Shown here one piece after another: positions 913-25,805 of a stretch of 25,805 nt of DNA. The DNA is from a virus. A program made the translations under genes and the position numbers. The stretch is from the IMG/VR virus record IMGVR_UViG_3300046003_004574, positions 1 to 25,805 of that record; one strand, written 5' to 3'. Every line of letters begins with the position of its first letter. Position 1 is the stretch's first letter. The notes below the pieces were generated by a model. It saw only the letters and a list, made by a program, of their open reading frames with translations. It searched no databases and was not told where the DNA came from.

Positions 913-932
913 TAAAAAATTCCATAAAGTAT

Positions 933-973: not shown

Positions 974-1001
974 CTATCATAATAATAAAAACAAAAAGGT
1001 T

Positions 1002-1658
1002 ATGAAAAAAATGATTTTAGTATTTCTTTTAGGAATTAGTTTCATCTCATGCTCACCAGAAGAATTAGGAGATAATTGCCCATGTGTAGATGGAAATTGT
1101 GACGCTCAATTTGTAATCGATACGCAACAAAACCCAGGTTCATACCAGGACACACAGGGTGTATGGCACATTAAACACTCAGGTTTAAATTATTTTAGAA
1201 TTAAAGGTCAAACAGATCAATTAGATTCAGAGTATGTAGTAAATGGAGTTCCATTAATTGAAACAGGTTATGACTCAAATTACTTCTACATACCAAATCA
1301 AATAACTTGGACGTATCCGGTTTACTCATATTTAGGACTTTTCTCCAATAATAATTTAGCAACAGCAATCCCAATAGGTTACCAGACATATACTTTACCA
1401 CAGATTGTAAATGATAATTCAGTATCTAATTTAGCTGGGTATGAGATTTCACGTTATTTTAATTTTAATCATCCAGCTGCTAAAACGATGCTTCAAACTT
1501 ATTCTAAATATACTTATTCACCTACACAACAAATGCCTTTTTTTACTGATATGATAGGGGATGAAGCAAGAATTTTTATTAGAGTAGTTTTTAACTCGGA
1601 CTATGTAGGTAATAGTGAAGAGAAAGTTTATGAAATTAAAGTTAAATTTGAAAATTAA
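1002..1658 (+). CDS. Phage-encoded lipoprotein, probably surface-exposed
   Basis: 218 residues. ATG 1002 is chosen because it opens a textbook lipoprotein signal: MKK, a hydrophobic stretch (ILVFLLGISFIS) and Cys17. A longer frame from TTG 933 would run through the hairpin and promoter and is rejected. After the cysteine comes SPEEL, an acidic patch resembling the lipoprotein export signals that send Bacteroidota lipoproteins to the outer cell surface. Next is a Cys-rich stretch (CPCVDGNCDAQF), then an all-beta body rich in Tyr, Asn and Pro. No enzyme motif is seen. It has its own promoter-like element and is followed 5 bases later by a nuclease-like gene. A likely but unproven role is altering the host surface to exclude other phages. 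Confidence 0.7.
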   Translation: MKKMILVFLLGISFISCSPEELGDNCPCVDGNCDAQFVIDTQQNPGSYQDTQGVWHIKHSGLNYFRIKGQTDQLDSEYVVNGVPLIETGYDSNYFYIPNQITWTYPVYSYLGLFSNNNLATAIPIGYQTYTLPQIVNDNSVSNLAGYEISRYFNFNHPAAKTMLQTYSKYTYSPTQQMPFFTDMIGDEARIFIRVVFNSDYVGNSEEKVYEIKVKFEN

Positions 1659-1663
1659 AGATT

Positions 1664-2284
1664 ATGTTTCAAGAAAAAATTTCATTTGAGCAAGCACTTT
1701 TATTAGAAAAAGAAAATAAAATTGTTATTTATAATCCGAACGTTGTAGAGTCAATTTATTCTAACGTTAAAGAATGGCAAGATAATTGGAATACATTAAG
1801 GAAAACATTTCGTAAGGTACCTGTTCAAAGATTATCATCATTCGCTAATTTCGAGTATTTGATTGAGCATAAATTTATTGAAAATAGTGAACCTGTTACA
1901 GTGAATTGGGTATATATGTATGGGCAAGATATTAGTACTAGGGTAAAGCTAAATGAATCAAATTCTAAAGGAAGGTATGTTTACGTCTTAACCAATGTTG
2001 CTTATCCTGATATTTGTAAAATAGGGAAAGCTGTTACGCCTTCTGAAAGAGTTAAACAAATAAATGGAGCAGGTATAGTTTCGGAATGGGTTTTAAAGTA
2101 TGCTTTACCGGTTACAGATGATTTTTTAGTTGAAAATTTAGTTCATCAGATGTTAGAAAATTTAAGATTAAGTTCACATCAAGGTTCATCTAGAGAATTT
2201 TTTTCTATAAGTTTAGAAGAAGCAATTTCAACTATAGAAAGAATAGGTGAAAATTTCGCCACAGCAAAACCAATTTATTATTAA
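1664..2284 (+). CDS. T5orf172-type GIY-YIG domain protein
   Basis: 206 residues. Residues 1-100 are an unrecognised, mostly helical region. Residues 103-190 match the T5orf172/Mug113 branch of the GIY-YIG nuclease fold. It shows YVYVLTN (105-111) with a tyrosine pair, CKIGKA (118-123) with the lysine, Arg129 in the helix after it (TPSERVKQ), then an ENLVHQML helix (157-164) and SREFF (176-180). Members of this branch are common in phages as nuclease-like accessory proteins. Whether this one cuts DNA is unknown. The gene follows the lipoprotein by 5 bases, so it is probably in the same transcript. Homing, host-DNA attack or a regulatory role are all possible. Confidence 0.7.
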   Translation: MFQEKISFEQALLLEKENKIVIYNPNVVESIYSNVKEWQDNWNTLRKTFRKVPVQRLSSFANFEYLIEHKFIENSEPVTVNWVYMYGQDISTRVKLNESNSKGRYVYVLTNVAYPDICKIGKAVTPSERVKQINGAGIVSEWVLKYALPVTDDFLVENLVHQMLENLRLSSHQGSSREFFSISLEEAISTIERIGENFATAKPIYY

Positions 2285-2300
2285 TTAAAAATTTATTATT

Positions 2301-2504
2301 ATGTTAGAATTTATTTTAGATCAGCTTTTAGTATTAGGTCAAATATATATTATTTTAGGCTTATTAGTTACTTTTACATTTTTGTGTATTAATTATATAG
2401 TTAAAGATAAAGAGAATGAATTCACATTCAGTGAGTCTTTTGGTTTAATTTTTTTCTATCCTGTTATTTTATATTACGCTTTTAATAAAAAAGATAATGA
2501 ATAG
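2301..2504 (+). CDS. Small two-helix membrane protein
   Basis: 67 residues with two hydrophobic segments, about residues 8-34 (ending FTFLCINYIV) and 47-61 (FGLIFFYPVILYYAF). They are separated by a short charged loop (KDKENEFTFSE). The C-terminal tail is charged (NKKDNE). No signal peptide cleavage site is apparent, so it should sit in the inner membrane. The last 8 bases overlap the start of the next gene, which suggests translational coupling. No family is recognised. Small membrane proteins beside a phage lipoprotein often act on superinfection or the cell envelope, but that is only context. Confidence 0.55.
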   Translation: MLEFILDQLLVLGQIYIILGLLVTFTFLCINYIVKDKENEFTFSESFGLIFFYPVILYYAFNKKDNE

Positions 2505-2799
2505 TAATTTTGAAAATTTAATAAAAACTCAAATTAATGGGATTCTTGAAGCATTTACTTCTGATTTAGAAAAGGTCCTTGAAGGTAAAGATTTCTTCTC
2601 ACAAGAGGAAAGAAAGAAAATTTATGAAGATTTTTTAAACGTTTTAGAATTTATTTCTTCTTACGAGGATGAAGTAGATCCCAAAATAAAGGACAAAATC
2701 AACCATATTAAACGTTTATTAAATACTTCAAGCGATATATGTGAGGGTGAAGAGCACCCACTTAATATCACATCATTATCAGATGTTCAAGAAAATTAA
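2497..2799 (+). CDS. Hypothetical acidic helical protein
   Basis: 100 residues, rich in Glu, Asp, Lys and Leu. It reads as three or four amphipathic helices (NLIKTQINGILEAFTSDLEK, QEERKKIYEDFLNVLEF, KIKDKINHIKRLL), followed by an uncharacterised tail. It is soluble, with no cofactor or metal motif. The start overlaps the end of the membrane-protein gene by 8 bases, so the two may be made together and could interact. It closes the accessory block. The next gene comes after a 111-base gap holding a promoter-like element. Confidence 0.5.
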   Translation: MNSNFENLIKTQINGILEAFTSDLEKVLEGKDFFSQEERKKIYEDFLNVLEFISSYEDEVDPKIKDKINHIKRLLNTSSDICEGEEHPLNITSLSDVQEN

Positions 2800-2826
2800 A
2801 CCTCCTTTGAAGACTTCACACAAAAG

Positions 2827-2857
2827 GCTTGGCTTGCAGCTTTTAATTTATTATATT
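2827..2857 (+). promoter_or_regulatory. Promoter-like GCTTGGCTT-N16-TATATT, copy 2
   Basis: GCTTGGCTT 2827-2835, a 16-base spacer and TATATT 2852-2857 repeat exactly the arrangement seen at 943-973. AAAAGGCT and AGCTTTT around the first element can form a weak bulged hairpin (2822-2844), less stable than that of copy 1. The following leader, about 2858-2910, is almost entirely purine. The element would drive the glutaredoxin, HD-protein, coiled-coil and sigma-factor genes, so it could set the timing of the late programme. Confidence 0.5.
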
Positions 2858-2902
2858 AGGAGTATGGAGGAAGAAAAAACTAAAATATGAAAAGATAGAA
2901 AG

Positions 2903-2918
2903 ATGAGAAAATGAGAAA
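2903..2918 (+). repeat. Tandem 8-base repeat at the glutaredoxin start
   Basis: ATGAGAAA occurs twice in a row (2903-2910 and 2911-2918). The first copy opens a three-codon frame, ATG AGA AAA TGA, whose stop overlaps the ATG of the next gene as ATGA. The second copy is the proposed glutaredoxin start. The arrangement looks like an upstream mini-ORF created by slippage, and it could couple or dampen translation. It is a direct observation; any regulatory effect is inference. Confidence 0.5.
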
Positions 2919-3219
2919 ATGGGAAATGGTAGTATTTGGTATCGAGGGATGCGGATACTGTGATGAACTGAAACGTGGATTAGGGGTAATGAATATCCCT
3001 TTCACTTATATCAATATCTCAGCTAATGAGGAACTGGGAGATAGGATAGAGGAGATATATAAATGTCCTGTCTACCCTATGGTTACTCTCAGACAAGATA
3101 AAATACCTCAGCAAATAGCTTGGCTACCCGGGACTTCTTTATTACATTCCACGTCAATTCGAGTTTTCGATACAATCAATCAATTATTAATTAATATTAA
3201 AGAAACATATGACAATTAA
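2911..3219 (+). CDS. Glutaredoxin-like thiol protein
   Basis: 102 residues with a thioredoxin fold. A strand (MVVFG) leads into the redox motif C14-G-Y-C17, then a helix, a second strand (FTYINI), and CPVYPMVTL, whose Pro56 is in the place of the conserved cis-proline. Phage glutaredoxins, such as T4 NrdC, reduce ribonucleotide reductase, and that is the likely role here. No reductase gene lies in the window. The start at 2911 is uncertain; Met6 (2926) would also leave a full fold. The 3' end overlaps the HD-protein gene by 11 bases, which points to coupled expression. Confidence 0.75.
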   Translation: MRKWEMVVFGIEGCGYCDELKRGLGVMNIPFTYINISANEELGDRIEEIYKCPVYPMVTLRQDKIPQQIAWLPGTSLLHSTSIRVFDTINQLLINIKETYDN

Positions 3220-3976
3220 ATTATCAGCAGATCAAATATCAGTTAATTGGGATATATTCATGTATAACATAGATACTTATATCTCAGAACCAAGACGTTC
3301 TAAACTTAAAAAATTTTATCTTAAATATCAAGAACGTATTATGATGATGCCTGCATCACATAAGAAAGAATACCATTCAGCTTTCCCAGGAGGTTATATT
3401 GACCACGTTAATAGAGTAGTTAGATGTTCTATAAAACAGTATAATTTATGGGAAGAAGAAGGAGCAGATATAAGCACCTTCTCTATTGAAGAATTAATAT
3501 TTTCAGCTATCAACCATGATTTAGGTAAAATGGGAGATGAAAATTATGAAGCTTATATACCACAAACAGACACGTGGAGAAAGGATAAATTAGGTGAAGA
3601 TTACACGTTCAATGATAAATTAGCATTTGCGTCGGTACCAGATAGAGGATTGTTTTTACTCCAAGATTTTGGTGTTAAATATTCATTTAATGAAATGGTT
3701 GCTATTCAAACTCATGATGGTTTATATGATGAGGCTAATAAAAAATATTTAATGGGTTATATGCCTGAGTTGAAACCAAGAACATCTTTACCTTATATTT
3801 TACATCAAGCTGACATGATGGCCGCTCGTATTGAGTGGGAAACTGATTATTTACCTAAATTTAAAGAAGATAAAAAAGTAGAATTAAAAACACAATCTAC
3901 TAATAAATTTTCTATTAAACAACCTAAATTATCTAATCCTGATGCTCCTTTTGCTAACCTTTTAAATAAAATATAA
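3209..3976 (+). CDS. HD-domain phosphohydrolase
   Basis: 255 residues. The metal-binding pattern of the HD superfamily is visible in order: HSAFPGGYIDHVNRV (His56, His66), INHDLGKMGD (His103-Asp104), QTHDGLYDE (His169-Asp170) and LHQADMMAARIEWE (His199, Asp202). The FPGG-plus-H spacing recalls the HD domain of YhaM-type exonucleases and dNTP or nucleotide phosphohydrolases. No nucleic-acid-binding domain is attached. The substrate could be a nucleotide, a cyclic or signalling nucleotide, or RNA ends. Beside a glutaredoxin, nucleotide metabolism is the simplest guess. The C-terminus (about 220-255) is a Lys- and Asn-rich tail. It overlaps both neighbours by a few bases. Confidence 0.7.
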   Translation: MTIKLSADQISVNWDIFMYNIDTYISEPRRSKLKKFYLKYQERIMMMPASHKKEYHSAFPGGYIDHVNRVVRCSIKQYNLWEEEGADISTFSIEELIFSAINHDLGKMGDENYEAYIPQTDTWRKDKLGEDYTFNDKLAFASVPDRGLFLLQDFGVKYSFNEMVAIQTHDGLYDEANKKYLMGYMPELKPRTSLPYILHQADMMAARIEWETDYLPKFKEDKKVELKTQSTNKFSIKQPKLSNPDAPFANLLNKI

Positions 3977-4251
3977 TGGACTTTATCATTAATTTACTTG
4001 TTATTTTTCTAGTATTATTAGTATATGTTATATGGAACTTACTTACTAAAGTAGAAAAATTAGAAAAAATTGTAGAAACTCAAGAAAAATATATTATTGA
4101 GTTTTATGATTTAGTTAAACAATCTGAATCAAAAATTAAAGAAATAGACTCTCAACAGTTATTCCAGTCGGATGATGAAGTAGGTTTTTTCTTTACTAAC
4201 CTAAAAAATATACAAGAGACTTTATCTGAATATATTAAATTTGTAAAATAA
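3976..4251 (+). CDS. Membrane-anchored coiled-coil protein
   Basis: 91 residues. One N-terminal membrane helix (residues 4-23, INLLVIFLVLLVYVIW) is followed by a charged heptad-like segment (LTKVEKLEKIVETQEKYI) and a second helical stretch to the end. The topology suggests a short N-terminal anchor with a cytoplasmic helical tail. No family is recognised. The start codon overlaps the stop of the HD gene (TAATG), and only one base separates it from the sigma-factor gene, so it is part of the same operon. Confidence 0.55.
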   Translation: MDFIINLLVIFLVLLVYVIWNLLTKVEKLEKIVETQEKYIIEFYDLVKQSESKIKEIDSQQLFQSDDEVGFFFTNLKNIQETLSEYIKFVK

Positions 4252-4252
4252 C

Positions 4253-5053
4253 ATGGAGATTCTAAATTCAGAAATTAAGATACTTCATGTTCCTCAAGAA
4301 GAAACAGAAGTACAATATACCAAAAAAGGAACAATAAGAAAAAGAAAGCCTAAAACTAAAAAAATGTATTTCACTCAGGACACTGAGGATGCAATTGTTG
4401 AGTATTTAGCTTCTACCGACACACATATAAGGAATAAGATTTATAATGAACGTATTAAATATGCCTTTCATAAATTAACAGAAAATATAATTCATACCTT
4501 TAAATTTTATTATACCGAAGTAGAAACAATAGCTGAGCTTCAACATGAAGTTACAGCCTTTCTCCTTGAAAAACTGCATCTCTATAATCAATCAAAAGGT
4601 AAAGCTTATTCTTATTTTGGTACTATTGCAAAACGTTATTTAATTCTTTATAATAATAAAAATTATGAAAAATTAAAAGGTAAAACTGATGTAGAGGCTA
4701 TAGATGAAGATAAAACTACTGTAATAAATATCTTAAACTCATCAGCTCCTACTGATGATCCCTTAGTAAGTGAAAGTTATTTCATAGAGCAATTTATTAA
4801 ATATATGGATTTGTATTTATATAAAATATTCTCTGATAAAGAAGATGCTAAAACTGCTGATGCTATAATGGAGTTATTTAAACAAAGAGAAGGTTTAGAT
4901 ATTTTTAATAAAAAAGCACTTTACATTTATATTAGAGAAATGACAGATCAAGACACTCCTCAAATTACTAAAGTGATTAAAGTTTTAAAGAAAGTATATC
5001 TTAGATTATTAAATCAATATCTAGATTATGGGTATGTTGGGTTAAATTATTAA
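4253..5053 (+). CDS. 55: T4 gp55-like late sigma factor
   Basis: 266 residues. A basic N-terminus (KKGTIRKRKPKTKK, 24-37) precedes a sigma-region-2-like helical block at about 42-140. In it are AIVEYL, RIKYAFHKLTENII, ELQHEVTAFLLEKLHLYN and KGKAYSYFGTIAKRYLI. This is the same order as T4 gp55, where a D/E-rich helix is followed by the GLHNFDETKYKNPHAYI stretch. T4 gp55 directs RNA polymerase to late promoters, with gp33 and the sliding clamp. This protein is about 80 residues longer, the extra part being a helical C-terminus (150-266). No region-4 helix-turn-helix is evident, as expected for the family. The first late-type motif lies immediately behind it. A general sigma-70-like phage factor is the main alternative. 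Confidence 0.75.
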   Translation: MEILNSEIKILHVPQEETEVQYTKKGTIRKRKPKTKKMYFTQDTEDAIVEYLASTDTHIRNKIYNERIKYAFHKLTENIIHTFKFYYTEVETIAELQHEVTAFLLEKLHLYNQSKGKAYSYFGTIAKRYLILYNNKNYEKLKGKTDVEAIDEDKTTVINILNSSAPTDDPLVSESYFIEQFIKYMDLYLYKIFSDKEDAKTADAIMELFKQREGLDIFNKKALYIYIREMTDQDTPQITKVIKVLKKVYLRLLNQYLDYGYVGLNY

Positions 5054-5071
5054 GAAATTTTTATTTAATTT

Positions 5072-5084
5072 ATATTTATAATAA
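5072..5084 (+). promoter_or_regulatory. Late-promoter-like ATATTTATAWTW, copy 1
   Basis: ATATTTATAATAA at 5072-5084, nine bases before the ATG of the first structural gene and 18 bases after the sigma-factor stop. The same core opens four other gene blocks. Read as TATAATAA it differs from T4 TATAAATA at two positions. The reverse complement of its core is TATAAATA itself. Confidence 0.55.
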
Positions 5085-5093
5085 AAACATATC

Positions 5094-5471
5094 ATGGATT
5101 TTAACACCATAACACTCTTTGGTAAAAAGACTTTTGCTGATTTACTAAAAGAGATACATACTAATTCCTCTAATAAGGAAAAAGAAATTAGAGCACTTAT
5201 AGACAATTTAAAACCGTTCATCACATCTGCTGGTGATGCGGTTATTATTGTCCCTTTAATTAAGGACTACTTAGATGTATCAGTAAAAAATGATGATCTT
5301 TTAATTAAAATGGCAGGTATTGTACAACGTGCTATGAATTCCAATACGGGAGGAGATGATTTACTATTAACAGATTCTGATAAAGAAATGTTATTCCAAT
5401 CAATGAATGAATTAGATACTAAAGCTAAAGAAGAATTACCTAAAATAGAGAATGAGCAATTTATATCCTAG
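5094..5471 (+). CDS. Putative virion or assembly protein, unknown
   Basis: 125 residues, soluble and mostly helical. It begins MDFNTITLFGKKTFADLLKE and ends with an acidic helical stretch (LDTKAKEELPKIENE). A GDAVIIVPLIKDYLDVSVKN segment in the middle could be strand-helix. I know no named family for it. It is the first gene of the structural block, has its own late-type motif, and overlaps the spike/hub gene by 20 bases. A tail-assembly or small baseplate role is therefore plausible. Confidence 0.5.
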   Translation: MDFNTITLFGKKTFADLLKEIHTNSSNKEKEIRALIDNLKPFITSAGDAVIIVPLIKDYLDVSVKNDDLLIKMAGIVQRAMNSNTGGDDLLLTDSDKEMLFQSMNELDTKAKEELPKIENEQFIS

Positions 5472-6378
5472 TTTACAACAAAGTATATCTAGTAATTCTA
5501 GTAAAAAAGGCAGTAGTAATCAAAATACTTTTTTCTTTGCTAGAGTTAATGACATTCTATTATCCACTGAAACTAAAACTGAAAATTTTTTTAATGATGC
5601 TGGTGGTTGGGCAGGGTTAGGTTCTATTAAATTTACTCAATTAGGTACTACTACCGATAATGATAAGCCTTCAAAATTAATAGCAAAACCATTATTTACT
5701 AATGTTTTGCAATATCCTATTTTAGAAGAAATTGTTTTAGTATTACAAGCACCTTCTGATGGATTAAATACTGATCCTCAATCTAAAACTTATTATTATT
5801 TAACAACTATTGGTTTATGGAATAGCATTCATCATAATGCTTTTCCTGATATACCTAATTTTAATAAGAAGATAAAAAATAAAAATGATAGTTCTACTCA
5901 ACAGATAGAAGAAGGTAGTTCTGTATCTGACAATCCTGATACTGGAGTTTTAAACTTTGGTAATTCTTTTAAAGAAAAAGCAGGAATTAGAAATTTATTA
6001 CCTGAGGAAGGAGACATTATAGTTGAAGGAAGATGGGGTCAATCTATTAGATTTTCATCTACAACCACTAAAAAATTACCATCTAATTCATGGAGTTCTC
6101 AAGGAGAATTAGGAGCGCCTATTACTATTATACGTAATGGGCAATCTAAGGAGAAAAACACTTCAGCGCCATGGGTCCCTCTTTATGAAGATATTAATAA
6201 TGATGGTTCATCTATTTACATGTCATCAGGTCAAGATATACCTTTAGAACTTGCTTCTAAAAATTTAAAATCTTTTAATGTAACTGTAGGAGCAGCATTT
6301 AATTCAGCACTACAAATACCTGATCCTTATATTCCATCAACAAACATTTCACCTAAACAAGCAGACAACCTTAAATAA
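5452..6378 (+). CDS. Baseplate hub/spike protein, gp5 OB-fold type
   Basis: 308 residues. The segment ILLSTETKTENFFNDAGG, then LGSIKF, then QYPILEEIVLVLQAP (about 88-101) and YYYLTTIGLWNSIHHNAFPD reads like the OB-fold part of gp5-like hub proteins. GDIIVEGRWGQSIRFSS (about 188-204) is a strand-rich motif I associate with such proteins in marine T4-like phages. No lysozyme domain is present, unlike T4 gp5. The next gene supplies a separate beta-helix, so the hub and the spike tip look split into two proteins. The homology is from pattern memory and needs a profile search; 'virion protein' is the safe reading. Confidence 0.55.
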   Translation: MSNLYPSLQQSISSNSSKKGSSNQNTFFFARVNDILLSTETKTENFFNDAGGWAGLGSIKFTQLGTTTDNDKPSKLIAKPLFTNVLQYPILEEIVLVLQAPSDGLNTDPQSKTYYYLTTIGLWNSIHHNAFPDIPNFNKKIKNKNDSSTQQIEEGSSVSDNPDTGVLNFGNSFKEKAGIRNLLPEEGDIIVEGRWGQSIRFSSTTTKKLPSNSWSSQGELGAPITIIRNGQSKEKNTSAPWVPLYEDINNDGSSIYMSSGQDIPLELASKNLKSFNVTVGAAFNSALQIPDPYIPSTNISPKQADNLK

Positions 6379-6797
6379 TGGCAGATTATAAACCCGACTT
6401 TCCTTATTTAGGAGAACAGATTATTATTAATTCCGGTAGAGTTATTTTAAACTCTAAGGATGATTCTGTATTTTTATTTGGTAAAAAAGCAATTGGTTTC
6501 TCTTCAGCTGGTACTATTAATTTTGATGCTGATGAAGCTATTATAATGAATACTCCTAAACTTTATTTAGGTTTAGATGCTAAAGAACCATTAGTAAAAG
6601 GAACTCAATTAACTATAATGTTAGATGATATATTGGATGCTTTAAAAGTATTAAGCTCACAATTAAAAAATACCCAAGATAGTAATGGAGTTTTTATAAC
6701 TAATATAATAACAGCCAGTGATAGTTTAGAAAAATCTGTAGGTAGGATTAAAGGTAGAGTAAAGGATATAACATCAAAACAAAATTTTACTTTATAA
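6378..6797 (+). CDS. Tail-spike beta-helix protein (gp5 C-terminal type)
   Basis: 139 residues. Residues 11-65 are short repeats of alternating hydrophobic and small residues (QIIINSGRVILNS, VFLFGKKAIGFSSAGTINFD, AIIMNTPKLYLG). This is the pattern of the intertwined triple-stranded beta-helix at the end of T4 gp5. Residues 75-139 form helices that could trimerise or attach the spike (MLDDILDALKVLSSQLK). The start codon overlaps the stop of the OB-fold gene (TAATGG), which fits partners made in a fixed ratio. It would form the membrane-piercing needle under the baseplate. No C-terminal iron-binding tip motif is seen. Confidence 0.6.
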   Translation: MADYKPDFPYLGEQIIINSGRVILNSKDDSVFLFGKKAIGFSSAGTINFDADEAIIMNTPKLYLGLDAKEPLVKGTQLTIMLDDILDALKVLSSQLKNTQDSNGVFITNIITASDSLEKSVGRIKGRVKDITSKQNFTL

Positions 6798-8257
6798 TGG
6801 CTATACCACAAGGATTATCTAATATTTTAACTAAAATTGCTCCTCAACGTGTAAATGATATGGTTGAGAAGATATTAGACATTTTAAATAAAGTTAATGA
6901 GGCTGTTAGAAAAATTAATGAAATAGATTTCTGTAACCCTTTAGGTTATATTTTAACAAAAGCTTTACCTCCAGGAGGAGTTTTAGAAAATAAAATGTTA
7001 AAATATGGTAAAGATATAACTGCTTTTATAAATAAACAAGAGGAAAAATTAGACCCTTTCAAACGTAAAGACGAAACTGAAGAACAATACAAAACTCGTT
7101 TATTATCATATCAAGAATCAATTGAGGAAATAAGACAATCTCTAGAAGATATTATACCTCCTCCTGATTTGGTAGATATATTTCCAGGTGGGGAAGGTTT
7201 AGTACAAACTATTAATACTTTAAATTTAGTATTAACTAATACTAGTGATACATTAGATGCTAGAACTGATCCTAAACAACTTATTATAACTAGAATTTCT
7301 TTAATAAAATCTTTCTCTGATAAATTAAAACCTTTTATGAGTCCTATTAATATAGCTACTTTAGCTATAGGGGATCAAGCTGAAGAATTAAATAAAAAAT
7401 TAAGAGATTTTATCAAACCTGAAAGGTTTGCCTCTAGTGTTGCATTTATAATCAAACAAGTAAAATCTATAGATAAAGCAATTGTACAAATTCAAAAAAC
7501 TATTCAGTTAATAAATACAATTTTAAAATTACTAAATACTTTAATAAAAGTTTTTAAATTTGTAACTAAGATTTTAAAAGCTTCTCCAATCCCTGTAGCT
7601 ACAGGTGGTGGTGGAAGTCCTGTAATATCTCAAACTGATGGAGCTTTAACTTCTAAAGCTGATAGAGTTAGAACATTCCAAACTAATATAGATGATTATA
7701 GTAAAGTAATTAGAATGATTACTAATTTCTTAAGCGGTAGTGTACTTTTACAAATTCAAAGAATTAGAAAAGAAATTATAAGGTTATTAACCGGATTAGA
7801 AATTTTATATAAAAATTTATTAGCTTGTCCTTATACAAATGATCCTTTATTAGAGCAAAGTCTACAAGATGCTATTTCATCTTTACAAAATAATTTAGTT
7901 ACTCTAGACAATTTATTTCCAACTGCTAAAACAGATAATTTATTACCTTCATTATATGATGGATATCAAATTGATATTATTAAAGAGGAAATTGTTGATG
8001 CTGGAATAAAATTATTAAGAAGAAGAGTAATAGTTAGCGATCAAAGAGGAATCACAGTATATGAAGGTACTCCAACTTTTGCTACTGATGATCAAATCTT
8101 AATTAAAGAAGGTCAATATTATATAGATAAACAAGGTAATATTGGTACAAGTGATGAAGGAAATTCTTTTCCTACTAATCAAGGAGTAATAAATGAAATG
8201 AATGAATTAGGTTTAAATCCTAATGATGTTAATGTTAACCCTAATGACTTAAATTAA
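6797..8257 (+). CDS. Helical baseplate-hub or tail-tip protein
   Basis: 486 residues. Most of it is helical. Residues 205-270 form a long hydrophobic-amphipathic helical run (KTIQLINTILKLLNTLIKVF, then VTKILKASPIPVATGGGG), ending in a glycine turn. The C-terminal part (about 392-445) is a compact beta segment (GYQIDIIKEEIVDAGIKLLR, then RVIVSDQRGITVYEG, then a LIKEGQYYIDKQGN strand pair). It is too short for a T4-like tape measure, but the hydrophobic run recalls tape-measure or hub proteins. It lies between the spike and the gp25 gene, in the usual hub position. The tail is Asn-rich (LNPNDVNVNPNDLN). Confidence 0.5.
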   Translation: MAIPQGLSNILTKIAPQRVNDMVEKILDILNKVNEAVRKINEIDFCNPLGYILTKALPPGGVLENKMLKYGKDITAFINKQEEKLDPFKRKDETEEQYKTRLLSYQESIEEIRQSLEDIIPPPDLVDIFPGGEGLVQTINTLNLVLTNTSDTLDARTDPKQLIITRISLIKSFSDKLKPFMSPINIATLAIGDQAEELNKKLRDFIKPERFASSVAFIIKQVKSIDKAIVQIQKTIQLINTILKLLNTLIKVFKFVTKILKASPIPVATGGGGSPVISQTDGALTSKADRVRTFQTNIDDYSKVIRMITNFLSGSVLLQIQRIRKEIIRLLTGLEILYKNLLACPYTNDPLLEQSLQDAISSLQNNLVTLDNLFPTAKTDNLLPSLYDGYQIDIIKEEIVDAGIKLLRRRVIVSDQRGITVYEGTPTFATDDQILIKEGQYYIDKQGNIGTSDEGNSFPTNQGVINEMNELGLNPNDVNVNPNDLN

Positions 8258-8276
8258 AAATAAGTTGTATTATTAA

Positions 8277-8289
8277 ATATTTATAATTA
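8277..8289 (+). promoter_or_regulatory. Late-promoter-like ATATTTATAWTW, copy 2
   Basis: ATATTTATAATTA, whose last base is the A of ATG 8289. If this is a promoter, the transcript would begin inside the reading frame. Then either translation starts at the internal ATG 8331 or the motif serves mainly the downstream wedge genes. This copy is the best test of what the motif does. Confidence 0.5.
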
Positions 8290-8765
8290 TGAAGTTAGAT
8301 GCTTTAAGAAAATTAATTAGAGAAGAAATGCGAACTGTAATCCAAGAGGAGCTTAAAGGCATCCTTACGGAGGCTGTAGTTATAGCAAGTGCGCCTGAAC
8401 AGAAAACTAAATTTACTTCTCAACCTCATGTTAAAACTGAATCTACATACAAACCTAGATTCTCAGAAATACTAGCTGAAAAGAAAGCTCCTACATCTAC
8501 AGGTAATCCTATTTTTGATCTTTTAAATGAAACTGCGGAGTCAGGAGAATGGAGATCTATAAATGGAGGTTACACTGCTCAAGATGCTGTAGGATTTGCT
8601 GGTGGTATGCCTGGTATGGGTGGTATTAATACTCCCGTAGTAGCTACGGTAGATCAAATGATATCAAACCAAGGACCTGTTAGAGATATAAATGATGTAA
8701 GAATAGATGCCGTACCTGATTTTACGGGATTAATGGGTAAATTAAAAGAAAACGGTAAATTATAA
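8289..8765 (+). CDS. Virion protein with basic amphipathic N-terminus
   Basis: 158 residues. It opens with a helix of alternating basic, acidic and hydrophobic residues (MKLDALRKLIREEMRTVIQE), then a linker rich in Ala, Ser, Thr and Pro, then a glycine- and methionine-rich patch (GFAGGMPGMGG). Proteins with an LRKLIREE-type start are, from memory, frequent among structural genes of marine T4-like phages. In T4 such N-terminal helices can target proteins to the prohead. The start is uncertain: ATG 8289 gives this helix, and ATG 8331 (Met15) would remove most of it. The stop overlaps the gp25 start (TAATGG). Confidence 0.5.
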   Translation: MKLDALRKLIREEMRTVIQEELKGILTEAVVIASAPEQKTKFTSQPHVKTESTYKPRFSEILAEKKAPTSTGNPIFDLLNETAESGEWRSINGGYTAQDAVGFAGGMPGMGGINTPVVATVDQMISNQGPVRDINDVRIDAVPDFTGLMGKLKENGKL

Positions 8766-9175
8766 TGGCTTATAATATAATTAATATTAATCCTTTAGAC
8801 TTACAACCTAGTAAAGGTGTAGGCATAAAAGTACCTTTTGATGGTCCAACCGGATTAAATATTACTTACACAACTAAAGAAGCTACTAAATCTAACATTT
8901 TAAATTTTCTTTTAACTGGTAAAAGAGAAAGAATAATGAACCCTAATTTAGGGGCAGGAATTAGAGAACAATTATTTGAACAAATAACTTCCAACACTAT
9001 TGAAAATATAGAGGATATAATAACATTTGGTTTAAATGATTATTTTCCTCAAATAAAATTAAATAATTTAACAGTTAATTCCTCACCTGATCAAAACCTA
9101 ATTCAAATTTATTTTAGTTATTCTATAAAAAATACTAATATACAAGATGAAATTGTAATAAATTTTAATAATTAA
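8765..9175 (+). CDS. 25: gp25-like baseplate wedge protein
   Basis: 136 residues, the usual size of the gp25/GPW family. The central motif GKRERIMNPNLGAGIREQLFE (residues 52-72, with R-E-R and M-N-P) corresponds to the family's EPR-like core and the 'NP.fG..l...LFE' strand-helix. It is followed by a helix with ENIEDII and a C-terminal strand pair (LIQIYFSYSI). In T4, gp25 joins the gp6-gp7-gp53 core bundle of the wedge and connects to the sheath. It lies two bases ahead of the gp6-like gene, the order conserved in contractile tails. The T4 protein was once called a lysozyme; no catalytic motif is seen here. Confidence 0.85.
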   Translation: MAYNIININPLDLQPSKGVGIKVPFDGPTGLNITYTTKEATKSNILNFLLTGKRERIMNPNLGAGIREQLFEQITSNTIENIEDIITFGLNDYFPQIKLNNLTVNSSPDQNLIQIYFSYSIKNTNIQDEIVINFNN

Positions 9176-9177
9176 TA

Positions 9178-11058
9178 ATGGCTAATTCAAAACCTATACA
9201 ATACTTAAATAAAGATTTTGATAGTTTAAAAGCACAATTGATAAATTTTGCTCAAACTTACTATCCTAATACTTATAATGATTTTAATGAAACATCACCT
9301 GGTATGATGTTAATTGAAATGGCTTCTTATATAGGAGATGTATTATCCTTTTATACTGATAATCAAATTCAAGAAAATTTTCTTCAATTTGCTAAACAGA
9401 GAAAAAATTTATTAGCCCAAGCTTACACTTATGGTTACCAGCCTAAAGTAACTAAAGCAGCATCAGTTAATTTATCAGTTTACCAAGTAGTACCTGCTGT
9501 ATTATCAGGTAGTCAGTTCACTCCAGATTTAAATTATGCTTTAATTTTACAAGAAGGAGGTAAAATTTCTTCTAATTTAGACTCTAATATACAATTTTAT
9601 ATAAATGAGAAATTAGACTTTTCAAAATCTGTACCTGGTTCTGAAACTGAAATATCAGTTTATTCTACTGATGTTAATCAAAACCCTCAATTTTATTTAT
9701 TAAAGAAAACAGTTAAGGCTTCAGCAGGAACTTTAACATCTACTAATATATCATTTAGCAATCCTGAGCGTTACCCTACTGTAGATATTAATGATTCTAA
9801 CATTATTGAAATAGTTGATGTAGTAGATTCTAACAATAATAAATGGTATGAAGTGCCTTATTTAGCTCAAGATACTATTTTTGTACCTACAGTTAATACA
9901 GCTCAAAATGATCCAAGTTTATCTCAATATAATGATACTGTACCTTATTTATTAAAATTAATAAAAGTACCTAGAAGATTTATAAAAAGATTTAAAGCTG
10001 ACAACCAACTTCAATTACAATTTGGTCCTGGTATTTCATCAGGAGCTGATGAAGAAATTATACCTAATTCTGATAATATAGGTTTAGGATTACCTTATGG
10101 TGTAGATAAAATGACTACAGCGTTTGACCCTTCAAATTTCTTATATACTCAAACTTATGGTTTAGCTCCTTCTAATACTACTTTAACAGTAACTTACTTA
10201 AAAGGAGGAGGAGCAACATCAAATGCCCCTACTAATACTTTAACTATAAACTCAGGAATAACAACTTCATTTAATGGTAATAATTTAGATAATAATTTAT
10301 CAAATACCGTTTTAGCCTCTTTAGCTTTTAATAACGAAGAATCAGCTAATGGAGGAGGAGATGGAGATACTAATGAACAAATAAGACAAAATGCTTTAGC
10401 ATCTTTCCCAACTCAGTTAAGAACAGTTACTAAAGATGATTATATTGTTAGAACTTTATCTTTACCTTCAAAATATGGTGTTGTTTCTAAAGCTTATGTA
10501 AATCAAGATATTAGTATTCAAAATAACTTTACAACAGATTTATTAGCAACTCAAAATTTAAATTCAATTTCATTATATATCTTATCTAGAGATAGTAATA
10601 ATAATTTAGCTGTTCCAAATAATGCTTTAAAACAAAATTTAAAGACTTACCTTTCTCAATATAGAATGGTAACTGATGCAGTTAATATTAAAAATGCTTT
10701 TATTATTAATATAGGTGTGAACTTTGAAATTATAGTTAGACCTAATTATAATAATAGGTTAATACTAAACAACTGTTTAACTACACTTCAAAATTACTTT
10801 AACATAGATAAATGGCAAATAAATCAACCAATAATCTTACCAGAGATTTATAGTAATTTAGATCAAGTTGAAGGAGTTCAAACTGTACAAAAAGTAGAAA
10901 TTGTTAATAAAGTAGGAAGTAATAATAATTACTCCCAATACTCATATGATATTAAAGGAGCTACTATTAATAATATAGTTTATCCTTCTTTAGATCCAAG
11001 TATTTTTGAAGTTAAATTTCCTACAACGGATATACAAGGCAGGGTAGTTACTTTTTAA
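9178..11058 (+). CDS. 6: gp6/baseplate-J-like wedge protein
   Basis: 626 residues, close to T4 gp6. The N-terminal helical region includes IQYLNKDFDSLKAQLINFAQ and the 'DFNETSPGMMLIEMASYIGDVLSFYTDNQ' helix (36-63), the classic entry of gp6/J proteins. At about 390-440 lies the family's 'GGGDGDTNEQIRQNALASF...LRTVTKDDYI' motif, in which the glycine loop precedes a helix and the T-x-x-D-Y turn. The C-terminus has INIGVNFEI and QPIILPEIYSNLDQVEGVQT, as in baseplate-J endings. It makes the iris ring of the baseplate wedge. It is followed by a 41-base gap holding another late-type motif. Confidence 0.85.
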   Translation: MANSKPIQYLNKDFDSLKAQLINFAQTYYPNTYNDFNETSPGMMLIEMASYIGDVLSFYTDNQIQENFLQFAKQRKNLLAQAYTYGYQPKVTKAASVNLSVYQVVPAVLSGSQFTPDLNYALILQEGGKISSNLDSNIQFYINEKLDFSKSVPGSETEISVYSTDVNQNPQFYLLKKTVKASAGTLTSTNISFSNPERYPTVDINDSNIIEIVDVVDSNNNKWYEVPYLAQDTIFVPTVNTAQNDPSLSQYNDTVPYLLKLIKVPRRFIKRFKADNQLQLQFGPGISSGADEEIIPNSDNIGLGLPYGVDKMTTAFDPSNFLYTQTYGLAPSNTTLTVTYLKGGGATSNAPTNTLTINSGITTSFNGNNLDNNLSNTVLASLAFNNEESANGGGDGDTNEQIRQNALASFPTQLRTVTKDDYIVRTLSLPSKYGVVSKAYVNQDISIQNNFTTDLLATQNLNSISLYILSRDSNNNLAVPNNALKQNLKTYLSQYRMVTDAVNIKNAFIINIGVNFEIIVRPNYNNRLILNNCLTTLQNYFNIDKWQINQPIILPEIYSNLDQVEGVQTVQKVEIVNKVGSNNNYSQYSYDIKGATINNIVYPSLDPSIFEVKFPTTDIQGRVVTF

Positions 11059-12474: not shown

Positions 12475-15400
12475 ATGGAAATAACTAATATATCAAGTCT
12501 AGATAGAACATCTTTTATAAATCAAGATTATAAACCACAAGACGAAATTTTATTAAATGCTTTAGAAGTAAATAATGAATTTGGTAATCCTGATGATAAG
12601 ATAGAAATTCATGTTATATCACCTAATGGTGATGTAATTGAATCTGTTTATGATTTTAGAAATTATAAAATAAATATTACTACTCAAAATAGTTCTCTAT
12701 ATAACCAAATTGAATTAGACCCTAAAGCAGATTTAGAGTCATTTGGTTATTTCTCAGGGCAATATGATGTTAATTATAACTTTTATAGACAATTATTCTT
12801 AAGTTCTCCATCTAATAATTTTTACATCTCAGAAATATCATCTGATAGAACTGAAATAAAAATTTCAAATAATAATATATCATATAATGATTTAGGTCAA
12901 AATTATTTAAATTATATAGCTACTAGAAATTCAAGAAACTTTTACTCTGATTTTATTTTAAATTTTGGGGAAAATGATACTTACATAGCAGTTAATGTAG
13001 CTTTAGATAATGTAAATACAAATGTGCCTAGTTTATATATTAAATTATATGAACCCTTACCTACTAACTTAAATGTTAAAAATACTTTATGGTTAGTTGA
13101 ATCCATATCTGAGCCTTATTCTTTTAGAGTAAATACAGATTTTATAGCTGAAGAAATAGATACTACTATTCCTTTAAGAGGGCCTAATGTTAATATTGAA
13201 TTAAATGATAAAGTTAATTTAACAACTCCTTATTTAAATTTATCTAATTTATTAGATAATTCATTAACTTCTTCTTACCAACAATTACAATCATGGTTAG
13301 AAGAAAAAAGTATAGAAATAACTGTTGATTACACTAACTTTAATAATTTTGTCCATTTCTCATCAGCTGAAGATAGGTTAAATAATTTTAAATATAAATT
13401 AACCCAAATTCAATCTTTACAAGCAGATATTGATAACTTAAATAATTTAAACCCTTTAACAGGTTCAGCTTATATTAATAGTAATAAAGAAATCCTTCAA
13501 AATAAATTAAACACTATAATTAAAAAATTTGATGGGTATGAATATTATTTATATTATGAATCAGGCTCAAAAACATGGCCTAAGACAAATTCATCAAAAC
13601 CTTATATTAATGCTCCAACAACATCTTCATTAGCATTAACATGGTTAGGTAGTAATATAGAATCCTCAACTTATTATGGAGGACAAATATTATCAGCATC
13701 ACTTTATGATAATTTAAATAAAAATTACATATGGAACAATTTACCAGAATATATAAAAGCTGATTCTCAAAATGCTAACCTAGAGCTATTTACATCAATG
13801 TTAGGTCAGCATTATGACTATATTTGGACTTATATTAAAGATATAACTGACATTCAAGTTGCTGATAATAGAATTGATTTTGGTATTTCTAAAGACTTAG
13901 TAGCTGATACTTTAAGAAATTTTGGTATTAAATTATATACTAACTCTAGAAATCAAGATGATATTTATTCTTCATTATTGGGTATAAATGCTGAAGGTAG
14001 TTTTTTACCTTCAACAGGATCTTACTTAATTAATAATTATGTAACTGCATCTCAATATACTATCCCTGATAATGATATCGTAAAAGAAACATATAAAAGG
14101 TTATATCACAATTTACCTTATTTACTTAAGACTCGTGGTACAAGAACAGGATTAAACGCTTTAATCAACTGTTTTGGTATCCCTGAAACTATTTTAAAAG
14201 TAAAAGAATATGGTGGGAGTAAAAAAGATGAGAATTTAATTGAACAAGTTACTCCTAAATTTAATTATAGTTTAAAATTAAATAATACTGCTAGTTTAGC
14301 TATACCATTCCAACCATCTTATAAACAATATTTAGATACAGGTTTTGATAATGTTTATCCTGATACTTTTGAATTTAGATTTAAATTTGATAATACATCT
14401 TCATTAACTCAATCCCTTTTACAATCTCAAGATAATAGATTAAGTGTAGGTATAACTCCAAGTACTAGTTCATATGCTTCTTTATTTTTTAAAGTATCAG
14501 GAAGTGGAACTAATTTTATAACTTCTTCTCAAATTACTTTACCTTTCTATAATAAGGATTGGTGGAATTTAAATATTACAAAACAATCAAGTAGTCTTAG
14601 TTTATTTCCTTCTTCTAGTATAAATCAACTTGTTAGTGATTTTCAAGCACGAGTAATAGCAGATGGTGGAACTTTTGAATCTACTGTGTGTTTATTAAGT
14701 GATTTAAATTCATTAGTAACTCCAAATTTAACTCAAAATCAATATTATACTATAACTGTTGGAAATAAAGATTCAAATGGTATTCAATATTTAACTTCTA
14801 GTTCACTTTTTATAACTGGAGAATTAACATCAAGTAATGCAGTATTCAATTCTCCCAATACTTTCTATTTAGGTGGAACAACTGATTACCCATTTTCAGG
14901 CTCAATTCAAGAATTTAGATATTGGATTGATTCAATTCCTATATCAGATTTTAAAGATCATATCCTAAACCCAAGATCTATTAGCTTTAACGGGGTAACA
15001 AGTTCTTATAATAATCTAATATTCAGATTACCTTTAGGTTCTGAATTAGATAATACTATAACTGCTTCATTATTTTCAGTTCATCCTGCAGTAACAGCTT
15101 CATTTACAAGTGCTTCTATAACTTCTTCTAAAGCTGTTTTAAATAATTATATTTCATCTTCATATAAAACTAACAATGAAACATTTTTAGTGAATACTCC
15201 TAATGTAGGTAACATAACTGAAATTGATGAAAAAGTAAGAATAGTATCACAAAGTTTAATTACAGGAAGTGTTTTAACTCCTTATATTTCCATTCAAAAA
15301 CCTTTAAATCCTTCATATACAAATGATTTATCAATTGTAGATATTTCTTTATCACCTCAAGATTCTATTAATAGTGATATAATAGCTCAATTAGGTTCAT

Positions 15401-23845: not shown

Positions 23846-24781
23846 ATGGTAAATGGAATTTTATTAGGTTTAGTACAATCTGTACTAGGAAAAGGGCATG
23901 TTACATCAAAAGGTAATTATGCCTTCCACTGTCCTGTTTGTAATCATAGAAAACCTAAATTAGAAGTTAATTTAATTCCAACTACCAAAAATGAAAATCC
24001 TTGGCACTGTTGGGCTTGTGATATTAAAGGTAAATCTTTATCTTCTTTATTCAAAATAATAAAAGTTGATGGAGGTAAATATGGTGAATTAAATTCTATA
24101 TTAGGTACTACTTATAAAACTGATAGAGTAGAAAATACAGAAAAAGTTGAATTACCTAAAGAATATAAACCTTTATTTAATTTAAGTAAAAATGATATTA
24201 CAGCTAGACACGCCTTAGCCTATATTAAACGTAGAGGAATAACACCTTCAGATATATTAAAATATCAGATAGGATACTGTGAAACCGGCCAATACTCAAA
24301 TAAAATTATTATACCCAACTATACAGCCGAAGGTAAGTTAAATTACTTTATAGCTCGTTCTTTTGAACAAGATCCTGCTAGAAAATATGATGCTCCATCT
24401 GCTGACAAAAATTCAATAATAGGTTTTGAAAATCTAATCAATTGGAATTTACCTATTATATTATGTGAAGGTGCTTTTGATGCTATTTCTATTAGAAGAA
24501 ATGCTATACCACTGTATGGTAAAACTTTATCAAAAGCCCTAACTAAAAAATTATTAGAAAATAATGTTAAAAATATTTATTTAGCGTTAGACAGTGATGC
24601 TTTAAAAAGTACACTAAAAATTGCCGGAGATCTACTCCAATCAGGAAAAGAATTACATGTTATAAAACTGGATGGTAAAGATCCAAGCGACATGGGGTTT
24701 GCTCATTTTACTACTTTAGTACAACAAGCTGAACAGTTTACTTTTTCTGATTTATTTTCACTTAAATTAGAAGTAAACTAA
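23846..24781 (+). CDS. DnaG-type primase (zinc finger plus Toprim)
   Basis: 311 residues. The N-terminal zinc ribbon is FHCPVC (Cys29, Cys32) and WHCWAC (Cys55, Cys58). A short linker follows. The Toprim catalytic core has IILCEGAFDAIS (Glu208), LALDSDA (Asp249, Asp251) and DGKDPSD (Asp279, Asp282). There is no helicase or helicase-binding domain, as in the separate T4 primase gp61 (about 340 residues). It would make RNA primers for lagging-strand synthesis. The stop overlaps the start of the RecB-like nuclease gene, suggesting that replication and recombination genes are expressed together. A primase for a defence or satellite element is unlikely given the context. Confidence 0.85.
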   Translation: MVNGILLGLVQSVLGKGHVTSKGNYAFHCPVCNHRKPKLEVNLIPTTKNENPWHCWACDIKGKSLSSLFKIIKVDGGKYGELNSILGTTYKTDRVENTEKVELPKEYKPLFNLSKNDITARHALAYIKRRGITPSDILKYQIGYCETGQYSNKIIIPNYTAEGKLNYFIARSFEQDPARKYDAPSADKNSIIGFENLINWNLPIILCEGAFDAISIRRNAIPLYGKTLSKALTKKLLENNVKNIYLALDSDALKSTLKIAGDLLQSGKELHVIKLDGKDPSDMGFAHFTTLVQQAEQFTFSDLFSLKLEVN

Positions 24782-25545
24782 TGAAAAAATCTTATGACAG
24801 AATTCTCCAAATTTCAAAAGACCACAAACAGATAACTCTACCTGACTCAAGGTTTTATCAAAGAAATGGAGAGTATTATCCATCAGTAACACATGTTTTA
24901 TCTTGTTATCCTAAAGGTCCTCATTTTGAAGATTGGTTAAAAAAAGTAGGTTACGCCTCAGAATATATTGTTAAGAAAGCAGCAGAAGAAGGAACACAAG
25001 TTCATAATTTATGTGAAGATTATTTAAATGAGAAAGAATGTTCATTCTTAAATCAATATGGTAATCCTGCTTATCCACCTCATGTTTGGTCAATGTTTTT
25101 AAATTTTGTTGACTTTTGGGAAACTCATAAACCAATTTTAATTGAAACTGAAGTACATTTATTTTCAGATATATTAAAAGTAGCTGGTACTTGTGATTTA
25201 ATTATTGAATTAAAAGATGAATTATGGGTATTGGATTTAAAAACATCTAATCATTTACAAACAACATATGATTTACAAACAGCAGTTTATAGTCAATGTT
25301 ATGAAGAATGTTTTGGTAAAAAAATAGATAGAAGAGGTATTTTATGGTTAAAATCTAAATCTAGAGGTGAAGATAAAACAGGTAAACGTTTAAAAGGTAA
25401 ACATTGGGAAGTAGTTGAATCTGATAGAACTCAAGATGAGAACCTAAATATATTCAAAAATGTTAAAGCTTTATTTGATTTAGAGAACCCATCACCTAAA
25501 CCTCATATATTAACATTAAGAACTACAGTTAAAAGGGAAGTATAA
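24781..25545 (+). CDS. RecB-type PD-(D/E)XK nuclease
   Basis: 254 residues. The conserved residues of the Cas4/RecB-like family are visible: E70-G-T-x-x-H75 in the early helix, Glu122 and Glu124, D139 in GTCDLIIEL, D152-L-K154 (WVLDLKTS), then DLQTAVYSQCY with Gln166 and Tyr170 (the QxxxY motif). The opening PSVTHVLSCYPKG fits the 'psvT.iL' entry of phage exonucleases. It probably degrades or trims DNA ends during recombination or packaging. No four-cysteine iron-sulphur set is present, which argues against true Cas4. The start overlaps the primase stop by one base. Confidence 0.8.
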   Translation: MKKSYDRILQISKDHKQITLPDSRFYQRNGEYYPSVTHVLSCYPKGPHFEDWLKKVGYASEYIVKKAAEEGTQVHNLCEDYLNEKECSFLNQYGNPAYPPHVWSMFLNFVDFWETHKPILIETEVHLFSDILKVAGTCDLIIELKDELWVLDLKTSNHLQTTYDLQTAVYSQCYEECFGKKIDRRGILWLKSKSRGEDKTGKRLKGKHWEVVESDRTQDENLNIFKNVKALFDLENPSPKPHILTLRTTVKREV

Positions 25546-25558
25546 ATATTTATATTAA
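25541..25558 (+). promoter_or_regulatory. Late-promoter-like motif within a palindrome
   Basis: ATATTTATATTAA (25546-25558) sits ten bases before ATG 25569. With the preceding bases, 25541-25554 is the perfect 14-base palindrome TATAAATATTTATA. It contains the exact T4 late consensus TATAAATA at 25541-25548 on the + strand and again on the - strand. It overlaps the end of the nuclease gene (stop TAA 25543-25545). Two-way late transcription is conceivable here. Confidence 0.5.
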
Positions 25559-25568
25559 TAATGTACTT

Positions 25569-25805
25569 ATGATCAAATTATCAACACTTTTAAAAGAAAT
25601 TACAGGTAAACCTAAAGCTATATTTTTAGCGGGCCCTGCTGGTAGTGGTAAATCTACTATGACTAAACAACTATTACCTTCATCATATCAGGTCATCAAT
25701 TCAGATGACACTTATGAGGAACTTTTAAAAGCAAGTGGTATAGGTTTAAAACAAAAAGATTTTACTCCTGATCAATTATCTCAAGCAGCTAAGTTACAAG
25801 CACAA
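25569..25805 (+). CDS. P-loop kinase, N-terminal part
   Basis: 79 residues to the window edge; the gene continues to the right. MIKLSTLLKEITGKPKA is a short charged amphipathic lead, then the strand AIFLAGPAGSGKST carries a Walker A motif (GPAGSGKS, Lys28). Next come a helix (MTKQLLP) and YQVINSDDTYEELL, like the zeta-toxin and polynucleotide-kinase families, in which an Asp-Asp after the second strand helps bind substrate. ATG 25569 is preferred because it follows the late-type motif and gives this lead. ATG 25561 opens only a three-codon frame. The lead resembles phage prohead-targeting starts. The nature of the substrate cannot be read here. Confidence 0.65.
   Translation, partial: MIKLSTLLKEITGKPKAIFLAGPAGSGKSTMTKQLLPSSYQVINSDDTYEELLKASGIGLKQKDFTPDQLSQAAKLQAQ

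Follow-up and report, generated by a model that had tools for sequence, protein, structure and literature searches.

A ten-residue lead resembling T4 capsid targeting sequences on a P-loop kinase and on unrelated proteins of related phages

The last gene in a 25,805-nucleotide stretch of viral DNA (the window), which is an entire IMG/VR record (contig G000) whose own sequence stops at 25805, encodes a P-loop kinase that begins with a ten-residue amphipathic lead. Judged from sequence comparison, this kinase is probably made late, packaged into the phage head and probably injected, together with a set of enzymes from the same gene cluster. Since unrelated proteins of related phages, about a dozen in all, have the same tag, these viruses probably carry an enzyme kit inside the particle.

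The kinase gene and its upstream region

The kinase is encoded by an ORF that starts at position 25569 on the + strand (MIKLSTLLKEITGKPKAIFLAGPAGSGKS), takes up the last 237 bases of the window and runs off its end. The record thus holds the 5' 79 codons of the gene (25569..25805, + strand), which full-length homologues place in the zeta toxin/AAA_33/polynucleotide-kinase fold group. A first-pass annotation of this DNA had described a P-loop protein beginning MIKLSTLLKEI, which is confirmed by the translation and its Walker A motif, GPAGSGKS, at residues 22-29 (25632..25655, + strand). The gene starts at 25569 and not at 25546, the first position of the annotated span, as the 12 in-frame codons after the preceding stop contain no ATG, GTG or TTG. 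Pfam also bears out the replication genes claimed upstream, namely a Toprim-type DNA primase (23846..24781, + strand; Toprim_2, 2.5e-6) and a PD-(D/E)XK nuclease (24781..25545, + strand; PDDEXK_1, 2.1e-5). In the cultured Flavobacterium phage immuto the primase homologue, found in the same place, is annotated as DNA primase and the gene next to it as exonuclease.

A scan of viral contigs confirmed 134 relatives of the kinase, the best 80 of which (L001-L080) were used below. One of them, L001:6001-6753, is a full-length protein of 250 amino acids that is identical to the window ORF over its 79 amino acids. No cellular relative was confirmed among 78 candidate stretches in one scan of genome contigs; since that scan used two peptide patterns only, distant cellular relatives may nevertheless exist.

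The first-pass annotation had also noted a late-type motif before the gene. Upstream of the ORF lies a palindrome, TATAAATATTTATA, at 25541-25554, whose overlapping halves are TATAAATA (25541..25548, + strand), the motif of that annotation, and sense TATTTATA (25547..25554, + strand), the first base of which is 22 nt before the kinase ATG. TATAAATA occurs 14 times on both strands of the window compared to 13.66 expected, a number reached in 48 of 100 shuffles, and it is found within 45 nt upstream of just five of the 73 complete kinase orthologues. We therefore rejected TATAAATA on the + strand as evidence for a late promoter and replaced it by sense TATTTATA/ATATTTAT or ATATGTAT/TATGTATA. The class of motif that had been proposed thus stands, sense TATTTATA being enriched before structural genes, but its letters do not.

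The replacement motifs were derived from upstream regions of 60-70 nt in the window and five related contigs. Two strand-specific motifs emerge. Sense ATATTTAT/TATTTATA precedes sheath, tube, portal and other structural-type genes, as recognised by sequence and gene order. TATTTATA is present in 22 of 45 upstream regions of contig G003 (0.8 expected) and in four of seven in the window (0.1 expected; the truncated kinase gene is outside this count), where five of its nine sense copies precede one of the 29 gene starts by at most 45 nt. The other motif, CGTATATT, is mostly found before small genes elsewhere in the genome. It often reads TTTCGTATATTTAA, is strand-specific and lies 24-57 nt upstream of many small genes (G001 823-9453 and 163064-172254; G009 46463-56647), and is a candidate for an early promoter, different from the motif of the structural genes.

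The motif upstream of the kinase is of the TATTTATA kind or, in the clade of G001, a TATGTATA-type variant. One or the other lies within 45 nt upstream of 61 of the 73 complete kinases, compared to 1.9% of random ATGs, and the remaining 12 have neither. Late-type expression of the kinase may thus be retained, with the copy of TATTTATA as a candidate late promoter element that differs from the motif first proposed.

The ten-residue lead and its probable T4 counterparts

The lead of the window kinase, MIKLSTLLKE (25569..25598, + strand), is a predicted capsid targeting sequence (CTS) that would be cut after Glu10. This prediction draws on its conservation, its reuse on other proteins, its likeness to T4 gp24, the residue map of the T4 internal protein IPIII and the low model confidence of the segment. 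The 80 loci (the best 80 of the 134 relatives) contain 46 distinct leads, in which Leu4 and Leu/Ile7 are invariant (46/46 each) and Leu8 and Glu10 are each kept in 45 of 46. Residue 2 is also near-invariant, and residues 3, 5, 6 and 9 vary; the exception is L061, in which the motif lies one residue earlier. The resulting pattern, M-I-x-L-x-x-L-L-x-E, is amphipathic and ends in the motif of the T4 prohead protease gp21, [LI]xE. It is followed by a variable linker (residues 11-14, of which 12-14 differ freely) and by the kinase domain from about residue 15. Synonymous divergence is 0.46 in the lead and 0.43 in the P-loop (57 distinct DNA sequences from 67 of the 80 loci, the 13 with truncated, shifted or longer leads being left out). 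This equality indicates that selection acts on the peptide and not on the nucleotide sequence. The [LI]xE motif is frequent by itself, since interior windows of 20 residues from these proteins have it in the tested positions in 15-23% of cases.

For T4, a review (PMC9026906) states that the ten N-terminal residues of IPIII are enough to target it to the head, that its residues 4 and 7 serve targeting and residues 8 and 10 processing, and that gp21 cleaves after L/I-X-E. The kinase lead keeps the same four positions. Leaders of the T4 type measure 10-19 residues and precede the functional domain. The kinase lead shares with the T4 CTSs (IPI-III and Alt) and with the gp24 propeptide its N-terminal place, its length of about ten residues, the hydrophobic residues 4, 7 and 8, Glu10 and the [LI]xE motif, but the letters of the T4 internal proteins (MKTYQEFIAE) are unlike those of the kinase lead. 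The start of T4 gp24, MAKINELLRE, can be set beside MIKLSTLLKE, and gp24 is described as losing an N-terminal propeptide to gp21 (PMC5694885). In a scan of 256 T4 ORFs with the lead profile, gp24 was the top annotated protein with 8.1 bits, the next reaching 2.5. One higher-scoring ORF that starts upstream of the annotated gp55.5 start was set aside, and gp67 was outside the ORFs kept. Other gp21 substrates rank low (alt 64, ipIII 115, gp22 145 and gp21 itself 232 of 256; gp68 is low too), so the likeness to T4 rests on gp24 and on the residue map.

A different explanation sees in the lead nothing more than the first helix that belongs to the kinase fold itself, on an ordinary nucleotide or polynucleotide kinase of the early or middle class, encoded beside replication genes. 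The genes upstream of the kinase are indeed of the replication type, the AlphaFold model predicts a helix at residues 4-11 (H4-11), and the structures of zeta toxin and AvrRxo1 align from model residue 9, so that they too have some sequence there. Against this, residues 1-10 have a pLDDT of about 49 compared to 90 for the domain, and residue 1 of T4 polynucleotide kinase (PNK) aligns with model residue 14, which makes the lead an N-terminal extension. Moreover, a lead of identical type is found on about 12 unrelated bodies, and the motif upstream of the kinase is of the structural-gene kind and not the CGTATATT of the small-gene region. We thus regard a native helix as quite improbable, and return to the lead as a putative head-targeting tag.

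Reuse of the lead, the gene cluster and the prohead protease

Across L001-L080 the lead profile scores at least 12 bits at 15 of 793 non-kinase N-termini and at none of 13,843 interior windows. At a threshold of 8 bits it finds 26 N-termini; nine interior windows reach this score, which corresponds to 0.52 expected. These 26 N-termini belong to 14 body families that have no detectable mutual similarity past the lead, two of which are doubtful (L061_9959 and L044_2, the latter a piece of an ORF cut by the edge of its contig). The bodies include HAD nucleotidases, one of which matches PF06941 (3.7e-6), and a protein with a weak match to Kinase-PolyVal (0.0014). The label ADP-ribosyltransferase (ART)-like for the lead protein at L063 9099 is weak, because Pfam gives only Tox-ART-HYD1 with an E-value of 0.087 and the scan of viral contigs returned its own contig alone.

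In five contigs the strict register (hydrophobic residues 4, 7 and 8, and Glu10) is found in 17 of 795 genes, compared to 1.7 expected from interior windows, and 15 of the 17 lie inside the kinase cluster. A looser test, for [LI]xE ending at residues 6-20, is positive for 59 of 100 cluster genes and 159 of 593 others (odds ratio 3.9), in pooled statistics that take in orthologous and hence not independent genomes. A loose amphipathic regular expression is enriched about three-fold or more at the N-termini of all five contigs; it also matches proteins that one would not expect to be packaged, namely the terminase large subunit and a nuclease-like protein at G001 145758. Several unrelated small proteins carry a third style of lead, [M]xNFDLKK[FY]L[AV]EN[KR]L (G001 39620 and 140091; G002 33699 and 105938; G003 34247 and 83964; G009 836; L125 5807 and 20633).

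In G001, G002, G003 and G009 the kinase opens a run of roughly 15-25 genes, many of them with leads, that ends at the terminase. Then follow the portal, core genes, gp21 (Peptidase_S77), the scaffold and the major capsid protein (phrog_138, 8.6e-69), with terminase, portal and scaffold assigned by order and resemblance. The cluster is thus located between primase/nuclease and terminase-gp20-gp21-gp23. As in the T4 system, a protease of the gp21 family is encoded: PF03420 (Peptidase_S77) is detected over the family cut-off in seven of 13 related contigs. It was not found in the other six, which are fragments, and the window fragment ends before the gp21 region.

The capsid proteins of immuto and G001 are 56.8% identical, and the order annotated in immuto is the same: primase, exonuclease, NMN adenylyltransferase, deoxyribonucleotidase, small genes, terminase, gp20, prohead protease and major capsid protein. 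Its leads include MISIYNILKEV and MRLLELLREAK, and KNV73_gp093, gp092, gp087, gp084, gp083, gp082 and gp080 are examples of its products that bear one. The kinase is absent from its place in the immuto cluster, where another gene is found.

The virion-targeting-like N-terminus of the first-pass annotation is therefore supported by the length and residue register of the T4 CTSs, the reuse of the lead on unrelated proteins, a gp21-type protease in related contigs and a cluster that leads into the head genes, from all of which packaging is inferred. The kinase would be transcribed from the late-type promoter suggested by its upstream motif, along with the structural genes. Its amphipathic lead would dock it on the prohead core, as the T4 CTS parallel and the reuse of the lead suggest. 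The gp21-type prohead protease would then cut after Glu10 at the [LI]xE motif and free a kinase that starts at the folded domain, and the enzyme would leave the head with the DNA and act at the start of the next infection. Co-packaged partners from the cluster may include the HAD nucleotidase, a cytidylyl/adenylyltransferase with a metallopeptidase-like part, and others.

The lead might also dock elsewhere, on a tail or baseplate component, a membrane or a phage-made compartment, so that the proteins bearing it would be localised, or associated with the virion, and yet not be cargo of the head. The amphipathic nature of the helix would suit such a role, and leads of related style are found on proteins encoded among baseplate-like genes, at G001 19208 and in the window. 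The window protein (8289..8765, + strand), an ORF of 158 amino acids, has its own TATTTATA at 8278, no Pfam match and a longer lead (MKLDALRKLIREEM; long basic amphipathic, MKLDALRKLIREEMRTVIQEELKGILTEAV); given its place, it is possibly but not necessarily a head protein. However, the register and the terminal Glu match the head CTSs and gp24 of T4, and a second motif, RMQxLAG, which is found both at the N-terminal end of small proteins and at the C-terminal end of the one in the gp22 position, points at the prohead core. Docking elsewhere is consequently very unlikely in our view.

The RMQxLAG motif is present in eight proteins of six gene sets, at the extreme C-terminus in two (scaffold position), near the N-terminus in six and inside none. 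In the longer form RMQxLAG[IVL]I[TN]E it is C-terminal in the proteins encoded at G001 56256-57491 and G002 13987-15225, and on the N-termini of unrelated small proteins at G001 144902 and 148412, G002 26280, 102806 and 110728, and G003 17578; further places are L125 13676 and 27627. Immuto shows the same pattern, with RMQKLAGIITE near an N-terminus and a C-terminal RWQKLAGIIK in the protein whose gene precedes that of the capsid. RMQxLAG is possibly a second signal for core binding or core targeting.

Returning to head packaging, capsid targeting sequences and injected enzymes are already known, and the review cited above proposes that CTSs let T4-like phages load various proteins (PMC9026906). 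What differs here is that the lead recurs on some 12 further protein families, many of them apparently enzymes. The use of one tag by many enzyme families within a group of uncultured phages, in a cluster headed by a kinase, is new as far as the literature searched goes: this literature, which takes in few subscription journals, contained no report of such a lead on any kinase or from phages of this group. A wider reading, to which we would give somewhat less than an even chance, is that a large group of T4-related aquatic phages has a modular arsenal of head-delivered enzymes. An interchangeable ten-residue tag would be found on at least 12 unrelated families (P-loop kinase, HAD nucleotidase, nucleotidylyltransferase, protein-kinase-like, ART-like and several of unknown fold), the protease would remove the tags and split polyproteins of the kinase-HAD type, and a Pnkp-like or nucleotide-salvage kit would be active at DNA entry.

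Injected proteins are known for few phages, and finding them normally takes purified virions. If the lead is a head-targeting tag, sequence alone would suffice to predict which proteins an uncultured phage injects. In that case one could say where and when the cluster genes of unknown function act, T4 capsid targeting, studied with a handful of proteins, would be a general delivery system, and anti-defence or take-over activities would be predicted for the cargo. Immuto and Flavobacterium sp. LMO8 are a cultured phage-host pair in which the central claim is directly testable.

Other cultured phages encode kinase relatives in which [LI]xE-type sites precede the P-loop. Those of phage Melnitz (MKTFAELQE-GVYDPNIFKAIFLAGG) and Pelagibacter phage HTVC008M (MIPFILKE-GLYDPGIFKAFFLAGG) have a Glu site before the domain in other letters; in HTVC008M the next gene is annotated as cytidyltransferase and a deoxyribonucleotidase is found four genes later. 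CDS 53 of Agrobacterium phage Atu_ph07 (AUZ94865.1, 778 amino acids) also contains a relative of the kinase domain (BFVD match, 4.2e-12). It likewise has a lead-like start, MKWNDLNE-A, and five consecutive neighbours begin M[KR]W[EQ]QL[NT]E. It differs in that Atu_ph07 is a jumbo phage, the lead has other letters and the kinase is fused behind another domain, ART-like by a YRGM motif seen by eye. CDS 53 falls in the cluster of CDS 31-76, and virions were found to contain the products of 29 of these 46 CDS (PMC6102473). The CDS numbering was checked by the tail sheath (132) and the head completion protein (125), which have the same numbers in that paper. A row of Atu_ph07 proteins at MF403008 39484-46418 (L126) starts M[KR]W[ENQ][QD]L[NT]E, followed by YRGM-like motifs, and by eye looks like a family of injected ADP-ribosyltransferases.

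T4 Alt, P1 DarB/DdrB and the N4 virion RNA polymerase are described as proteins whose diverse enzymatic domains are thought to enter with the DNA (PMC5512222). The lead-bearing proteins resemble these polyvalent or injected proteins in the diversity of their enzymatic domains and in the one Kinase-PolyVal match, but here they are mostly separate small proteins with a lead each and not one giant polypeptide. The kinase fold was also found inside two larger phage proteins in BFVD, the 1134-residue "anti-CBASS Acb1" A0A6J5LTH6 and the 629-residue "cytidyltransferase-like" A0A6J5LF86, which on the basis of these models are possibly larger packaged multi-enzyme proteins.

Fold, substrate and HAD fusions of the kinase

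The window ORF is a P-loop kinase whose full-length relatives of about 250 amino acids are modelled with a zeta/polynucleotide-kinase fold. Its best Pfam family is that of the Zeta/PezT toxins: full-length L001 matches Zeta_toxin (PF06414) with 4.3e-13 (49.6 bits, above the Pfam cut-off of 22.3), followed by AAA_33 with 4.2e-12. A profile search of solved structures returned zeta only (1gvn, 3.3e-5). In contrast to these toxins, the kinase sits in a phage genome, and no antitoxin gene was identified beside it in gene lists inspected by eye only.

The AlphaFold model, made with 21 aligned homologues, has a mean pLDDT of 90.5. The nearest solved folds, compared with VIA-align and Foldseek, are C. 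thermocellum polynucleotide kinase (Z 15.2), phosphoseryl-tRNA kinase (14.1), zeta toxin (13.4), AvrRxo1 (13.3) and T4 PNK (12.8). Because several kinase families are thus bunched together, between Z 15.2 and 11, we did not assign a substrate from the fold; it is probably a nucleotide or the 5' end of a nucleic acid.

Nine of the 73 complete kinases (L069-L072 and L074-L078) are kinase-HAD fusions of 411 amino acids; L071 and L072 (DGVI) were missed by the HAD regular expression and added by reading the sequences. The nine are about 90% identical and so probably go back to one event, and kinase and HAD are separate genes in the clade of the window. In all nine, the sequence LAE, with A or G as its next residue, stands seven residues ahead of the HAD. 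In a model of one of them, all 14 residues with a pLDDT under 50 are residues 1-11 and 254-256, beside Glu10 and Glu253. These stretches fit a release of both enzymes by the prohead protease, although flexible linkers are expected at fusion points anyway.

The HAD pairing and the likeness to PNK favour the healing of nucleic-acid ends, and a Pnkp-like pair of kinase and HAD phosphatase is our preferred, if weakly supported, guess on function. T4 PseT and the C. thermocellum Pnkp kinase have the same P-loop kinase fold, and the kinase-then-HAD order of the nine fused homologues is the domain order of T4 PseT, which the T4 record calls a 5'-kinase and 3'-phosphatase. A packaged kinase could then act with its HAD partner to mend RNA or DNA ends that host defence nucleases have cut at the onset of infection. 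This is possible but doubtful. The sequence families and the solved-structure profile search prefer zeta, and the profile match to T4 PseT (hhalign, E-value 9.8e-6 over 33 columns) scarcely exceeds the P-loop. Moreover, the phage kinase differs from PseT and Pnkp by its extra 13-residue lead, its HAD partner matches 5'-3' deoxyribonucleotidases, and no ligase was identified adjoining the kinase.

The neighbouring nucleotidylyltransferase favours, on the other hand, a nucleotide or coenzyme role. AvrRxo1, which is among the close structures, phosphorylates NAD. The gene next to the kinase matches a PHROG of nicotinamide-nucleotide adenylyltransferases (1.8e-6), and its counterpart in immuto is annotated as NMN adenylyltransferase NadR. 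Packaged kinase, nucleotidylyltransferase and nucleotidase might thus form a nucleotide or coenzyme kit, for example for NAD repair against NAD-depleting defences, and phage NAD reconstitution has been described (PMC12774641). We consider such a kit unlikely, as the best structure-sequence match of the transferase is a phosphopantetheine adenylyltransferase (6.4e-6) and its best PHROG is a generic cytidyltransferase.

Finally, the HAD nucleotidase is fused to the nucleotidylyltransferase/peptidase protein in L037, L048, L061 and L066, and to the kinase elsewhere. That it is joined now to one, now to the other suggests that all three act together. Among the five listed fusions on the transferase side, three have [LI]xE 8-9 residues before the HAD, and L066 and L080 do not.
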